Positions 32,191 to 38,072 of a stretch of DNA of 64,000 nucleotides are shown one piece after another. The stretch is from the NCBI RefSeq assembly GCF_900129025.1, contig NZ_FQUM01000004.1, forward strand, positions 1 through 64,000. The letters run 5' to 3'. Each line of letters starts with the position of its first letter. Position 1 is the stretch's first letter. Source of the DNA: Mariniphaga anaerophila. GTDB lineage: Bacteria; Bacteroidota; Bacteroidia; Bacteroidales; Prolixibacteraceae. The position numbers were made by a program, and so were the translations under genes. The notes beneath the pieces were generated by a model. It worked only from the letters and a program-made list of their open reading frames with translations, searched no databases and had not been told where the DNA came from.

Positions 32191-32225
32191 AAAAAAGCCT
32201 GTCTCGGTTTCCCAAAACAGGCTTT
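32191..32225 (-). terminator. Intrinsic terminator after ilvC
   Basis: AAAGCCTGT (32225-32217 on the - strand) pairs perfectly with ACAGGCTTT (32202-32194), followed by a T-run (32196-32191). It closes the ilv operon. Confidence 0.87.
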
Positions 32226-32273: not shown

Positions 32274-33320
32274 TTACTTACCCGGACGAAGTTTTCTTAC
32301 TGCTGCGCCGGCCTGCCACAATTCAGATTCGCGCATTTCGGTAAGCTCTGCATTCAGGCTGACTTTATAATCAGCTCCTGAAGTAGAATCCAACACACGT
32401 TTGGTTTCTGCTCCTGATTTTACGCTTTCATACAGGTCGTTAAATACCGGAAGTGTAGCTTCGCGGAATTTATGGCGCCAGTCGAGGGCACCACGCTGTG
32501 CAGTGGCGCTACAGTTGGCGTACATCCAGTCCATACCGTTCTGGTCAACCAAACGGATAAGGCTCTGTGTAAGCTCTTCCACAGTTTCGTTAAATGCTTC
32601 AGACGGGCTGTGTCCGTTATCGCGCAGCACTTTGTACTGTGCTTCGATAATTCCTGCCAGCGCTCCCATCAAAACACCACGTTCGCCGGTAAGATCTGAA
32701 AATACTTCGTTTTCGAAAGTAGTTGGGAAAAGGTAACCTGATCCGATGGCAATTCCCAATGCAAGAGTACGTTCCTCTGCTTTTCCGGTGAAGTTCTGGA
32801 ATACGGCGTAGCTTGAGTTAATACCGTGTCCTGCCAAAAAGTTAGTACGAACGCTGGCGCCTGAGCCTTTTGGCGCAACCATTATTACGTCGATGTTTTT
32901 CGGAGGAATAACACCTGTTTGCTCATTATAAGTAACTGAAAAACCATGAGAGAAGTACAATGCGTTTCCTTCATCCAGGCATGGTTTTAACTTAGGCCAA
33001 AGGATGCGCTGTGCTGCATCTGATACCAGGTACTGAATAATTGTACCTTTTTTTGCTGCTTCTTCAACAGGAAAAAGCGTTTCGCCGGGAACAAAACCAT
33101 CGCGAACTGCTTTGTCCCAATCTTCTTTAAACTCAGGTGCTTGTCCGATAATGACATTAAACCCGTTGTCTTTCATATTCAGTGCCTGAGCCGGTCCCTG
33201 AACACCGTAGCCGATAATGGCAATTACTTCATCTTTTAATACTTCACGTGCTTTTTCTACAGGAAATTCTTCGCGGAGGACTACTTTTTCTGTTACTCCG
33301 CCAAAGTTAATTTGTGCCAT
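32274..33320 (-). CDS. ilvC: Ketol-acid reductoisomerase (NADP+)
   Basis: A 348-residue enzyme of the isoleucine/valine pathway, converting acetolactate or acetohydroxybutyrate to dihydroxyacids. Evidence: the Rossmann start IGYGVQGPAQALNMKDNGF, VIMVAPKGSGASVRTNF, GIAIGSGYLFPTTFENEVFSDLTGERGVLMGALAG (with the Mg ligand region EVFSDLTGER) and the second half with NETVEELTQSLIRL and QRGALDW. Length and order match class I enzymes with the Bacteroidota-type GVQGP motif. It is the last gene of the operon, 87 bp after ilvN. Confidence 0.95.
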   Translation of the reverse strand: MAQINFGGVTEKVVLREEFPVEKAREVLKDEVIAIIGYGVQGPAQALNMKDNGFNVIIGQAPEFKEDWDKAVRDGFVPGETLFPVEEAAKKGTIIQYLVSDAAQRILWPKLKPCLDEGNALYFSHGFSVTYNEQTGVIPPKNIDVIMVAPKGSGASVRTNFLAGHGINSSYAVFQNFTGKAEERTLALGIAIGSGYLFPTTFENEVFSDLTGERGVLMGALAGIIEAQYKVLRDNGHSPSEAFNETVEELTQSLIRLVDQNGMDWMYANCSATAQRGALDWRHKFREATLPVFNDLYESVKSGAETKRVLDSTSGADYKVSLNAELTEMRESELWQAGAAVRKLRPGK

Positions 33321-33407: not shown

Positions 33408-33950
33408 TTAATCCATGCTTTCCAGCAAGGCGTCTCTCTCTTTTAAAAACTCCGAAAGCCGTTCTATGGGGTCGCGGGTAATTGCCACCCGACCCGAACG
33501 TATAAACTGCATTACCTTAAATTTGTTCAGCTCTTCGAACAACGCCTGGGTTTCTTCTTTGTGCCCGGTTTTCTCAATAACGATATAATCGCGGGTAATC
33601 TCCAGAATACGAGCGCCTGAGTTCCTAACCACTTTTTCAATGGTATCGTCCTCATAAACAGCTTCTGTAGGAACTTTATACAGTGCAATCTCCTGGTAAA
33701 TCATCTCCTCGTTGGTGTGGTAGAATGCTTTCAGAACATCAATCTGTTTTTCGATTTGACGAACAATTTTCACTACCTGTTCTTTGGTCGATTTTACCAC
33801 GATTGTAAATTTAAAAACCCCCTGAATAGCCGATTCTGAAACGGTTAAACTTTCAATGTTAACTTTTCGTCGGGTAAAAACAATGGTTATCCTGGTGAGT
33901 AAACCAATGTGGTTCTCCGAGTATACTGTTATGATGTGTTCTTTTTTCAT
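33408..33950 (-). CDS. ilvN: Acetolactate synthase small (regulatory) subunit
   Basis: A 180-residue regulatory subunit with an N-terminal ACT domain (KKEHIITVYSENHIGLLTRI, VFTRRKVNIESLTVSES), a linker, and a C-terminal IlvN/ALS-ss-like domain (YEDDTIEKVVRNSGARILEI, KTGHKEETQALFEELNKF). It should bind valine and give feedback control to IlvB. The frame can be read from 33998, but those 16 codons come from the 101-bp dispersed repeat; the ATG at 33950 starts the conserved protein. The 147-bp gap to ilvB is long for this operon because of that repeat. Confidence 0.92.
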   Translation of the reverse strand: MKKEHIITVYSENHIGLLTRITIVFTRRKVNIESLTVSESAIQGVFKFTIVVKSTKEQVVKIVRQIEKQIDVLKAFYHTNEEMIYQEIALYKVPTEAVYEDDTIEKVVRNSGARILEITRDYIVIEKTGHKEETQALFEELNKFKVMQFIRSGRVAITRDPIERLSEFLKERDALLESMD

Positions 33951-33971
33951 CTGTATAAAATTTTTTGATTT

Positions 33972-34072
33972 CTGAATGTTCAAAAAATTTGAAGACATTC
34001 AGGAACTCACATAAATTTTAATCATTCCTGTTTGTGAATTTTGAATAACGAAAATTCATGTTCGTTTCATAT
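33972..34072. repeat. Dispersed 101-bp repeat, copy 2, inside the ilv operon
   Basis: It matches copy 1 (17542-17642) at 90 of 101 positions without gaps. It fills most of the ilvB-ilvN gap (33951-34097). CTGAATGT/ACATTCAG and TGAATTTT/AAAATTCA are both perfect inverted pairs here. It would be transcribed in the ilv mRNA as its reverse complement. Confidence 0.87.
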
Positions 34073-34097: not shown

Positions 34098-35795
34098 CTA
34101 GGGTTCGAGCATTACTTCAGAAACCGAAGCCCCGGTGGGAACCATCGGAAAAACATTGTCTTCTTTCTCAATTACCACTTCCAAGAGGTAAGGACCATTG
34201 TGGTCGATCATTTGTTGGATACTCTTTTCGAGATCTTCGCGGGCTTCTACTTTGTGTCCGTCAATTCCGAACCCTTTTCCGATAGTTATAAAATCGGGGT
34301 TCTGAAGCTCGGTAAACGAATACCTTTTTTCGAAGAAAAGCTGCTGCCATTGGCGCACCATCCCAAGGAAATTATTATTCAACACGATAATTTTTACCGG
34401 CAGCTTGTTCTGCGCTATGGTTCCCAGTTCCTGCAAAGTCATCTGAAATCCACCGTCGCCAATTACGGCAACAACGGTACGGCCCGGTGCTCCAAGCTGC
34501 GCGCCGATACTGGCCGGCAAACCAAAGCCCATTGTGCCAAGTCCGCCGGAAGTGACGTTACTACGCGGATGACGAAACTTGAAATACCGGGAAGCAATCA
34601 TTTGATGCTGGCCAACATCGGTAACCAAAATGGCTTCGTGATTGGTTTTATCGCCTGCAACACGTATTACTTCGCCCATGGTAAGGCCAGGTTTCTCGGG
34701 GAAAAGATCTTTTTTTATGATTTTTTCGTCTTCAATCTGATAACACTCCCTAAAACGGTTCACCCATTCGTCGTGCCGATTGGGCTCAACATTGTCGGTA
34801 AGCATTTTCAACGTTTTTTTTGCATTCCCCAGAACCGGAACATCGGCCACTTTTATCTTGTTGATTTCTGCCGGATCAACTTCAAGGTGAATAATTTTTG
34901 CATTTGGAGCATAAGCCGATACTTTTCCGGTAACCCTGTCGTCGAAACGCATTCCAACGCCAATAATTACATCGGCCTCATTGGTAAGCAGATTGGGGCC
35001 GTAATTGCCATGCATACCAAGCATACCTACATTTAACGGATGATCGGTTGGCAGCGCAGAAAGGCCCAATAAAGTCCAGGCAGCAGGAATTCCGGTTTTT
35101 TCAACAAAAGCTTTCAACTCTTCCTCAGCTCTTGCAATAAGCACTCCCTGCCCAAAAAGCAATAACGGTTTTTTAGCAGCGTCAATAATTTCAGCAGCTT
35201 CCTTTATTTTAAAAGGATCGATTTGAGGCTCGGGAACATAACTCCTTATTTTCCGGCATTTTTTGTATTCAAACTCTAGCTCGCCGAACTGTGCATCTTT
35301 GGTAATATCGAGCAACACTGGGCCGGGGCGACCAGACTGCGCCACATAAAAAGCCTGTGCAATGGCTCCCGGAATTTCTTCGGGAGAAGTAACCTGAAAA
35401 CTCCACTTGGTAATCGGCATAGAAATGCCCAACACATCCGACTCCTGAAAAGCGTCTGTTCCCAAAAGCGGAGAAGCAACCTGCCCTGTAATGCATACCA
35501 GCGGAGTTGAGTCTATCATTGCATCGGCAATGCCGGTAATAAGATTAGTAGCTCCTGGACCTGAAGTAGCAAAGCAAACTCCGGCTTTCCCGGTTATCCG
35601 GGCGTAGCCTTCGGCTGCGTGAACAGCACCTTGTTCATGACGGGTGAGAATGTGTTTTACATTTCTGTCGTAGTCGTACAACGCATCGTAAATGGGCATA
35701 ATTGCCCCGCCCGGATACCCAAAAATGGTATCAACGCCTTCCTCCAGCAAAGAAAGGATTACGGCCTGCGAACCTGAAACTTTTCTCTTTGTCAT
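34098..35795 (-). CDS. ilvB: Acetolactate synthase large (catalytic) subunit
   Basis: A 565-residue thiamine-diphosphate enzyme, the first shared step of Ile/Val synthesis. N-terminal domain: FGYPGGAIMPIYDAL, LTRHEQGAVHAAEGYAR (catalytic Glu), GVCFATSGPGATNLITG. Middle domain: KPLLLFGQGVLIARAEEEL. C-terminal ThDP domain: SGGLGTMGFGLPASIGAQLG and the GDGGFQMTLQEL...NNNFLGMVRQWQ binding motif. Length is as expected for biosynthetic ALS. It is second in the operon, 29 bp after ilvD. Confidence 0.95.
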   Translation of the reverse strand: MTKRKVSGSQAVILSLLEEGVDTIFGYPGGAIMPIYDALYDYDRNVKHILTRHEQGAVHAAEGYARITGKAGVCFATSGPGATNLITGIADAMIDSTPLVCITGQVASPLLGTDAFQESDVLGISMPITKWSFQVTSPEEIPGAIAQAFYVAQSGRPGPVLLDITKDAQFGELEFEYKKCRKIRSYVPEPQIDPFKIKEAAEIIDAAKKPLLLFGQGVLIARAEEELKAFVEKTGIPAAWTLLGLSALPTDHPLNVGMLGMHGNYGPNLLTNEADVIIGVGMRFDDRVTGKVSAYAPNAKIIHLEVDPAEINKIKVADVPVLGNAKKTLKMLTDNVEPNRHDEWVNRFRECYQIEDEKIIKKDLFPEKPGLTMGEVIRVAGDKTNHEAILVTDVGQHQMIASRYFKFRHPRSNVTSGGLGTMGFGLPASIGAQLGAPGRTVVAVIGDGGFQMTLQELGTIAQNKLPVKIIVLNNNFLGMVRQWQQLFFEKRYSFTELQNPDFITIGKGFGIDGHKVEAREDLEKSIQQMIDHNGPYLLEVVIEKEDNVFPMVPTGASVSEVMLEP

Positions 35796-35824: not shown

Positions 35825-37657
35825 TTAGTCTATCAAACGAACCGCTCCCATGTCGGCTGAAGAAACCAGGCTGGCATAAGCTTTTAACGCTTTTGAAATT
35901 TGCCTGTCGCGCTGGGTTGGCTGAAAAGCCTCTTTCCCTTTCGCTTCTTCTGCTTTTCTGCGTTTTTCCATTTCCTCATCAGAAATAAGCAGATTGATGG
36001 ATCGATTTGTTATGTCTATTTCAATTTTATCGTTGTTCTGAACCAGTCCAATAGCGCCTCCGGCAGCGGCTTCCGGAGAAACATGCCCGATGGATAATCC
36101 GGAAGTACCCCCGGAAAAACGTCCGTCGGTAATCAGCGCACAGTATTTATCCAACTGCATGGATTTGAGGTAAGACGTGGGATACAGCATTTCCTGCATT
36201 CCCGGGCCTCCTTTTGGTCCCTCGTAACGAATAACAACCACGTCGCCTTTTTGTACGGCGTCGCCCAAAATGCCGTTTACAGCATCTTCCTGCGAATCGA
36301 AAACTTTAACGGTACCGGTAAATTTAAAAATGGAAGAATCTACGCCGGCAGTTTTAACAATACACCCGCTTTCGGCAATATTCCCGTAAAGCACCGCCAG
36401 GCCTCCGTCTTTGTTATAGGCGTGCTCCAAATTCCTAATACACCCGTTCTGACGATCGGCATCCAAATCAGTGTAATAATTTTCCTGCGAGGCCAGAGTC
36501 AGATTTCTCTTGCCATCGCCGGGAGATGAAAGATACCGTTGCTTGGCATCTTCAGAAACGTTGCTATTCATGATATCATAAGCATCAATCGCTTCCTTCA
36601 ACGTTCTGCCGTCGATACGGTTAACCGATGTTTCCATAAGTCCTGCACGGTCGAGTTCAGCCAAAATTCCCAGAATACCTCCTGCTCTGTTTACGTCCTG
36701 AACATGGTAATGCGAGCTTGGTGCCACTTTACACAAGTTAGGCGTAACACGCGAGAGCCGGTCAATGTCTTTCATGGTAAACTCCACTCCTGCCTCGTGA
36801 GCAATTGCCAGCAGGTGCAACACTGTATTGGTTGATCCGCCCATGGCAATATCGAGTTTCATTGCGTTCAGAAATGAATCGCGAGTAGCAATGCTTCTTG
36901 GAAGAACAGAATCATCACCTTCGAAATAATATTTTTTGGTGGCTGAAATTATTTTTTCAACAGCTTCTTCGAATAATTTTTTGCGGTTGGCATGGGTTGC
37001 AACTATTGTTCCGTTTCCGGGAAGCGCCAGACCTATGGCCTCTGCAAGGCAGTTCATTGAGTTAGCAGTAAACATTCCGGAACACGAACCGCAGGTTGGA
37101 CAGGCATTTTGTTCAATTATTGAAAGATCCTGATCTGAAACAGACTTGTCGGCTGCCATAACCATGGCATCCACCAGGTCGTAATGTTTTCCGCCAATTT
37201 CTCCGGCTTCCATTGGTCCTCCCGAAACAAATACCGAAGGAATATTCAAGCGCATAGCAGCCATCATCATTCCAGGAGTAATTTTATCGCAATTGGAAAT
37301 GCAAACCATGGCATCTACTTTGTGGCCGTTACACATGTATTCTACGCTATCGGCAATCACATCGCGCGAGGGAAGCGAATAGAGCATCCCGTCGTGTCCC
37401 ATGGCAATTCCGTCGTCGATAGCAATTGTATTGAATTCGGCTGCAAAAAAACCTTGTTTTTCGATTAAACTCTTTAAGTATTGTCCGATTTGGTGAAGGT
37501 GGGCATGCCCGGGTACAAACTGCGTAAATGAATTAACAATAGCAATTACCGGACGTCCAAAATGTTCTTCTTTCATGCCGTTGGCCCGCCAAAGGCTCCT
37601 TGCTCCTGCCATCCGGCGACCCTGTGTAGTGGTGTTACTACGTAATGGAATTTGCAT
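35825..37657 (-). CDS. ilvD: Dihydroxy-acid dehydratase
   Basis: A 610-residue iron-sulfur dehydratase, acting after IlvC in the pathway. Evidence: [21 protein letters not shown] and [20 protein letters not shown] carry the Fe-S Cys ligands; [46 protein letters not shown] and [23 protein letters not shown] complete the family signature. It is the first gene of ilvD-ilvB-ilvN-ilvC, and the long leader before it (37658-37917) holds the attenuator. No leu genes or ilvA are within the window. Confidence 0.95.
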
Positions 37658-37685: not shown

Positions 37686-37721
37686 TATTAAAAAAGCCTT
37701 CCCCGTTTTCGGGAAAGGCTT
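37686..37721 (-). terminator. Attenuator terminator of the ilv operon
   Basis: On the - strand AAGCCTTTCCC (37721-37711), loop GAAAAC, then GGGGAAGGCTT (37704-37694) form an 11-bp stem with one G-U pair, followed by a run of T. It lies between the leader peptide and ilvD, 28 bp upstream of the ilvD ATG. Its 5' arm is also the partner of the antiterminator. Confidence 0.87.
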
Positions 37722-37763
37722 GTCCGTATCTTATACAACTACATATAAATCTATCCTTTCCCG
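37710..37763 (-). promoter_or_regulatory. Antiterminator pairing of the ilv attenuator
   Basis: CGGGAAAGG at 37763-37755, inside the last codons of the leader peptide, is perfectly complementary (9 bp) to CCTTTCCCG at 37718-37710, which is the 5' arm of the terminator. The two folds exclude each other, as in classical ribosome-mediated attenuation. Confidence 0.77.
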
Positions 37764-37819
37764 GTATTTCCAGAAATGACCACGAGAATGACTAGAATGT
37801 ATGTAGAAAATATTTTCAT
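37751..37819 (-). CDS. ilv leader peptide
   Basis: A 22-codon frame (ATG at 37819, TAG at 37751) encoding MKIFSTYILVILVVISGN plus four residues. Eight consecutive codons specify Ile-Leu-Val-Ile-Leu-Val-Val-Ile, exactly the three end products of the pathway, and the codons end just before the antiterminator segment. When charged Ile, Leu or Val tRNA is scarce, a ribosome stalled in this run would leave CGGGAAAGG free to pair with the terminator arm and allow readthrough; when charged tRNA is ample the ribosome reaches the stop and covers it. This is too short for usual gene finders. Confidence 0.82.
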   Translation of the reverse strand: MKIFSTYILVILVVISGNTGKG

Positions 37820-37923
37820 CCGTTTCTATTTAAAAACTTTAATGGCAACTCTCGAAAACCACACAGCATACAATCATGCTTCTTTGTAGTGATTATCACC
37901 GTGCTTGTTTCATCATGTGTTGG

Positions 37924-37952
37924 CAAATGTAAAAACAATATTTAAAAATCAA
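37924..37952 (-). promoter_or_regulatory. ilv operon promoter
   Basis: On the - strand TTG (37952-37950), an 18-bp spacer and TACATTTG (37931-37924) match the Bacteroidota promoter form. Transcription would start near 37917, giving a 98-nt leader before the leader-peptide ATG. Two other tiny frames (MMKQAR and MIVCCVVFESCH) lie in that leader and are not called. Confidence 0.75.
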
Positions 37953-38072
37953 AATGAATTGAAAGTAAAAATCCATTTTTTCTTCTAGATTTAAGTTTTA
38001 CATTAACTTTTAGTTTAAATATGAATAATTTGGGCAAGGGAATTTTGAGAGAAGGAACTGAAGATAAAACAC

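Follow-up and report, generated by a model that had tools for sequence, protein, structure and literature searches.

Leader-peptide attenuators predicted upstream of ilvD in Mariniphaga anaerophila and in most of its sampled Bacteroidales relatives

The ilvDBNC operon of Mariniphaga anaerophila is preceded by a leader that, as judged by sequence comparison, very probably acts as a ribosome-mediated transcription attenuator sensing the charged tRNAs for isoleucine, leucine and valine. Comparison of related loci established a conserved leader frame, a restriction of its regulatory codons to Ile, Leu and Val (I/L/V), two covarying and mutually exclusive helices and a narrow spacing between these codons and segment 2, the 5' arm of the antiterminator. 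The operon lies on the minus strand of the window, by which we mean the whole 64,000-nucleotide stretch of DNA analysed here. Using NCBIfam models, its genes were identified as ilvD, dihydroxy-acid dehydratase (35825..37657; TIGR00110, 790.8 bits; NF009103, 1045.2 bits), ilvB, acetolactate synthase large subunit (34098..35795; TIGR00118, 733.7 bits), ilvN, acetolactate synthase small subunit (33408..33998; TIGR00119, 107.8 bits, cut-off 56.9) and ilvC, ketol-acid reductoisomerase (32274..33320; TIGR00465, 307.6 bits, cut-off 226.15). A terminator-like hairpin is located 3' of ilvC at 32225 on the minus strand. Another (38106-38079, minus strand) occurs 3' of the gene upstream of the ilv promoter region.

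The leader peptide ORF (MKIFSTYILVILVVISGNTGKG; 37751..37819, minus strand) was recognized from its sequence and from homologous leaders in relatives. It runs over 22 codons from an ATG at 37819 to a stop codon at 37751 and contains YILVILVVI, including eight consecutive regulatory codons, I L V I L V V I (37775..37798, minus strand), which were compared in seven genomes. Among 5000 dinucleotide shuffles of the 400-nt upstream region of the window, five contained an ATG frame whose I/L/V run was as good. The leader is preceded by a promoter predicted from the sequence and from aligned relatives (37924..37954, minus strand), with a TTTTG box at 37954-37950, an 18-nt spacer and TACATTTG at 37931-37924, which we take from the consensus to be -33 and -7 boxes of the Bacteroidota type. 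In seven aligned close relatives the -7 box reads TACATTTG in six and TACTTTTG in one. The first-pass annotation of this DNA had claimed just such a promoter, as well as a 22-codon leader with eight consecutive Ile/Leu/Val codons, and both are present. The -7 box and the leader ATG are 112 nt apart in the window. Of the seven close relatives, six have a distance of about 26-38 nt here and one has 67 nt. Alignment with these relatives delimits an extra 5' leader stretch at approximately 37840..37918 (minus strand), whose edges form an imperfect 15-nt direct repeat (73%) spaced 78 nt. When this stretch was searched as a repeat, no other full copy was found in the genome.

Folding and covariation point to an intrinsic terminator hairpin formed by segments 3 and 4 (37694..37721, minus strand). 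Read from 37721 to 37694, it comprises 12 pairs including one G.U, a 4-nt loop and a T-run, and folds at -20.1 kcal/mol (z -5.1); of the 11-bp terminator with T-run noted earlier, all but the stem length thus stands. Pairing and covariation assign segment 2 (CGGGAAAGG; 37755..37763, minus strand) to the last leader codons before the stop, and segment 3 (CCTTTCCCG; 37710..37718, minus strand) to both the antiterminator 3' arm and the terminator 5' arm. As had been proposed, positions 37763-37755 pair with 37718-37710 over 9 bp with perfect complementarity, and terminator and antiterminator are mutually exclusive because both use the 5' arm of the terminator. The antiterminator-containing fragment folds at -15.9 (z -3.2), and 1 of 200 shuffles was as good. 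Protector pairing between segments 1 and 2 is only weakly supported in ilvD units: over 88 related units the mean z is -0.52 (Wilcoxon p = 1.4e-4), nine units have a z above 1, and the unit in the window has a z of -0.29.

For the course of events we infer leader translation, ribosome stalling, the transcription start site and the amount of read-through. RNA polymerase would start near 37917 on the minus strand and copy the leader. With all three charged tRNAs plentiful, the ribosome would proceed to the leader stop codon and cover segment 2, upon which segment 3 would pair with segment 4, the terminator would form and the transcript would end near 37690. If any of the three charged tRNAs were short, the ribosome would stall in the I/L/V run with its front edge just before segment 2, which would then be free to pair with segment 3; no terminator would form, and ilvDBNC would be transcribed.

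The same arrangement is widespread upstream of ilvD. We compared 129 ilvD loci, consisting of 30 from relatives (one being that of the window), 80 named records, which are the best 80 of at least 595, and 19 more. Complete units of leader plus terminator numbered 88 and occurred in 79 of the 129 loci, counts that are not independent as the rows are related by descent. One such unit belongs to a Bacteroides record (L063). With leaders picked by their ILV score and the Bacteroidota label assigned by ourselves, an ILV run scoring at least 6 was present in 72 of 104 loci so labelled, and at a score of 5 in 82; the remaining 22 had no ILV leader even at score 5 within 400 nt. A score of at least 6 was reached in none of the 23 non-Bacteroidota loci with enough upstream sequence, in one of 104 reverse strands and in 20 of 2080 shuffles. 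Nine other sets of residues reached it in 0 to 6 of the 104 Bacteroidota-labelled loci. From these comparisons a chance origin of the ILV leader is untenable. The clear Bacteroidota leader reported by the first-pass annotation is real, but it is not a one-off, being common before ilvD in the sampled relatives. Putative promoters accompany the units as well: 76 of the 88 units have TAnnTTTG in the 160 nt preceding the leader ATG, compared to 10.8 expected from mononucleotide shuffles, and the nearest box lies 24-45 nt from the ATG in 57 of these 76.

Among the 639 run codons with a middle T, Phe occurred 3 times (12.6 expected) and Met 8 times (34.4 expected), and the frequencies of both in reverse-strand runs match expectation. 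As Phe and Met are avoided in leader runs, unlike in reverse strands, the signal is I/L/V and not merely hydrophobicity. A short frame with a hydrophobic run might also encode a functional hydrophobic microprotein, with the hairpin, which is strong by itself, acting as an ordinary partial terminator. However, the ends and lengths of the peptides vary while I/L/V identity and the position of the run are kept, and the antiterminator covaries with the terminator, leaving a microprotein barely conceivable as the function of the leader.

Covariation of the two helices was assessed in an alignment of 78 rows, taking from each locus the unit nearest to ilvD, except that L016 is represented by its distal unit, the other having yielded no terminator, and that L033 was omitted, its unit being identical to that of L022. 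In the antiterminator, 89.5% of the cells are paired, and changes on both sides occur in 8 of 10 pairs. For the terminator the values are 95.4% and 11 of 11 pairs, a figure that is favoured because terminators were a criterion for inclusion, which antiterminators were not. None of 500 shuffles reached the observed values of either helix, and sliding the pairing partner lowered pairing to 66% or less. The frame, the terminator and the antiterminator are hence conserved in relatives with compensatory change, in support of the attenuation originally suggested. Relatives without the ILV frame or the paired arms had been named beforehand as the outcome that would speak against it; when this comparison was run, both turned out to be kept.

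The terminator arms of the 88 units fall into classes, namely CCTTTCTC (45 units), CCATTCTC (14), CCTTTCCC (6) and others (23). Segment 2 fits its own arm class best in 33 of 45 (7 ties), 14 of 14 and 5 of 6 units (1 tie) of the three named classes, respectively. Its pairing has a p value above 0.05 in 16 of the 88 units, and an identical two-base mismatch, GAGATTGG against CCTTTCTC, recurs in 4 of the 78 aligned units. We also considered whether a CCTTTC arm is commonplace in terminators here and rejected this idea; one of nine strong terminators in the window has CCTTTC, and this is the attenuator itself. The commonest segment 2 core, AGAAAGG (e.g. in L052, L069 and L117), is complementary to the 3' end of Bacteroidota 16S rRNA, CCUUUCU, possibly by coincidence. 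This resemblance was set aside because the arms vary by class.

Conservation of the arm sequence itself, with CCTTTCTC in 45 of 88 units, might be a sign of sequence-specific recognition, as would be expected if a protein or metabolite switched the terminator and the alternative pairing and the leader frame were incidental. We regard such a switch as very unlikely: the conserved I/L/V codons with their avoidance of Phe and Met, the joint changes of the arms and the codon-to-arm spacing, which is held while the stop codon moves, all speak for a translating ribosome, and no Rfam family matched at the gathering score.

This spacing was determined for the 72 of 88 units with a segment 2 pairing p of at most 0.05. 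Counted from the first base of the last codon in the run, it amounts to 9-17 nt up to segment 2 (median 13, SD 1.8), with segment 2 chosen by pairing and searched only 3' of the run. For the window the value is 14 nt, counted from the start of the last Ile codon (37777-37775) to 37763. Segment 2 begins anywhere from 27 nt before to 4 nt after the last base of the stop codon (SD 6.7), and it overlaps this codon in 50 of the 72 units. Random placement of segment 2 in the spacer gave an SD of at least 8.9 in 2000 trials. When segment 2 was instead defined by alignment columns (77 units), which removes the choice by pairing only, the SD was 2.2 to the last run codon, 8.0 to the stop codon and 5.9 to the terminator. 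The natural reading, given the usual size of the ribosome footprint, is that a ribosome which stalls with its A site at the last regulatory codon may leave segment 2 uncovered immediately ahead of its leading edge, and would cover it on moving to the stop codon. Leader RNAs freed by attenuators act in trans in some bacteria, as does rnTrpL, and the terminated leader RNA (about 230 nt here) could likewise be mainly a trans-acting small RNA with attenuation as a secondary effect. The observed conservation is, however, explained by a cis switch, which makes a mainly trans-acting role highly improbable compared to attenuation of the operon.

Some loci carry more than one unit. Two complete ILV units in tandem precede ilvD in nine loci (L011, L012, L013, L015, L017, L021, L048, L051 and L065). 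The second unit lacks TAnnTTTG within 160 nt in eight of these, and in six of the nine a CCATTCT-type arm in the first unit is followed by a CCTTTCT-type arm in the second. Counterparts are also present before other operons in the genome of the window, which further weakens the notion of a one-off. Upstream of leuA (L205), a Leu/Ile leader (MSLKNNIALLSLIIGIILLIQKK) with the arms GAGAATGG and CCATTCTC has the same layout as the ilv unit, as has a His leader, HHGHH, upstream of hisG (L139). The region upstream of trpE (L176, -364 to -98) contains two Trp leaders in tandem, WLPWW and WWW, and a terminator comes after each of them. Among the genomes compared, leader and terminator were found together in 11 of 17 leuA loci (counting the best match per genome and excluding 13 weaker paralogue loci, L220-L232), in 11 of 16 trpE loci and in 14 of 16 hisG loci (leaving aside three loci, L146-L148, with weaker HisG matches). 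In seven of the 16 trpE loci there are two Trp leaders, both provided with a terminator. The distance from the last run codon to segment 2 is similarly narrow in the leu units (SD 2.1, median 13; 11 of 11 units used) and in the his units (SD 2.0, median 18; 12 of 14 units used, omitting L130 and L131, where segment 2 looked different). In the trp units, a search beginning 15 nt before the stop codon revealed no clear segment 2. Leaders of thrA (16 regions) and pheA (19 loci, often with a short upstream sequence) were searched and set aside; this search yielded one T-rich frame, in L242, and no thrA leader was evident in the genome of the window, also with a corrected start.

Beyond the close relatives, a wider search of the phylum covered 61 genomes, from which 34 upstream regions were taken. 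Four of these were judged to have an ILV leader with a terminator, two from the same class (L256 and L257) and two from another class of the phylum (L264 and L265), with ILV scores of 4.6 to 5.6. The trait thus looks patchy in distant members of the phylum, or our criteria miss it. Two further regions scored higher without having a terminator. L279 has an ILV score of 6.4, and L282, from a distant relative, one of 11.4. In L282 the ILV-rich frame is long, a strong hairpin lacking a T-run comes after it, and frame and hairpin occupy the reverse strand at about 349-214 nt from the end of the region taken.

Rfam gave no match at the gathering score in the window, T-boxes and riboswitches included, nor in nine loci with ilv, leu, trp or his leaders, where Leu_leader, His_leader, Trp_leader and the other leader families did not reach the gathering threshold. 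The best match below threshold, to the small RNA model ncr1575, was full-length with 38.8 bits against 60 needed (E = 0.00035). We dismissed it as likely due to chance, like those to PyrR (26.0) and Phe_leader (17.5). Taken together, sequence comparisons show conserved predicted amino acid attenuators in most of the sampled Bacteroidales relatives and in a few more distant members of the phylum, unseen by Rfam. Within this bacterial group, the device before ilvD seems to be an ordinary regulatory element, one that Rfam lacks.

A broader proposal can be offered tentatively, at somewhat less than even chances. Much of the Bacteroidota may share one minimal attenuator for ilv, leu and his, consisting of a leader, a segment 2 at the leader end and a terminator, with no need for a protector stem. 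Selection would keep segment 2 of this attenuator where the leading edge of a ribosome comes to rest when it stalls at the last regulatory codon, and some lineages would stack two such units sensing the same amino acids. If true, this design would imply close coupling of transcription and translation at Bacteroidota leaders. Attenuation of this kind works only if a ribosome follows RNA polymerase closely, so that the leaders would be ready reporters of this coupling in Bacteroidota, which are not known to rely on Shine-Dalgarno pairing. Covarying arms and a narrow codon-to-arm spacing also provide a search rule for similar leaders before other operons.

Enterobacterial ilv and leu operons are controlled by leader-peptide attenuators with regulatory codons. 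The ilvD unit resembles these in its short leader of I/L/V codons, its exclusive antiterminator and terminator and its position before a branched-chain operon. It differs from the enterobacterial and Rfam leaders in that segment 2 is located at or inside the end of the leader ORF, in its weak sign of a 1:2 protector stem and in an operon that begins with ilvD, and from the Rfam families also in having no match at the gathering score. Comparative genomics by Vitreschak et al. in 2004 and Lopatovskaya et al. in 2010 is reported to have included some predicted attenuators in Bacteroidetes, of the same mechanistic class as the ilvD unit. Because of these reported predictions, a Bacteroidota attenuator is not new in principle, and greater interest attaches to the spacing rule, the occurrence of tandem units and the distribution across the group. 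In the open-licence literature, which our search covered, no description of an ilv attenuator in Bacteroidota was found. A B. thetaiotaomicron transcriptome study notes sORFs resembling leader peptides in long 5' UTRs (PMC7366714). A 2013 Rfam-based survey suggested a possible origin of amino acid attenuators in gammaproteobacteria, with few transfers (PMC3766115); the minimal design, if true, would argue against such an origin and rare spread. Candidate leader peptides are described for actinobacterial ilvB, and these likewise combine with terminators before branched-chain genes outside Proteobacteria, although in another phylum and before another gene (PMC1262725). The closest likeness to the tandem units is found in Salmonella mgtCBR, where tandem leader-ORF attenuators respond to two signals, ATP and proline (PMC3641672). 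Two leader-ORF attenuators per transcript are thus common to both systems, whereas, unlike in mgtCBR, the two tandem ilv units share I/L/V runs and the two trp units share Trp codons.
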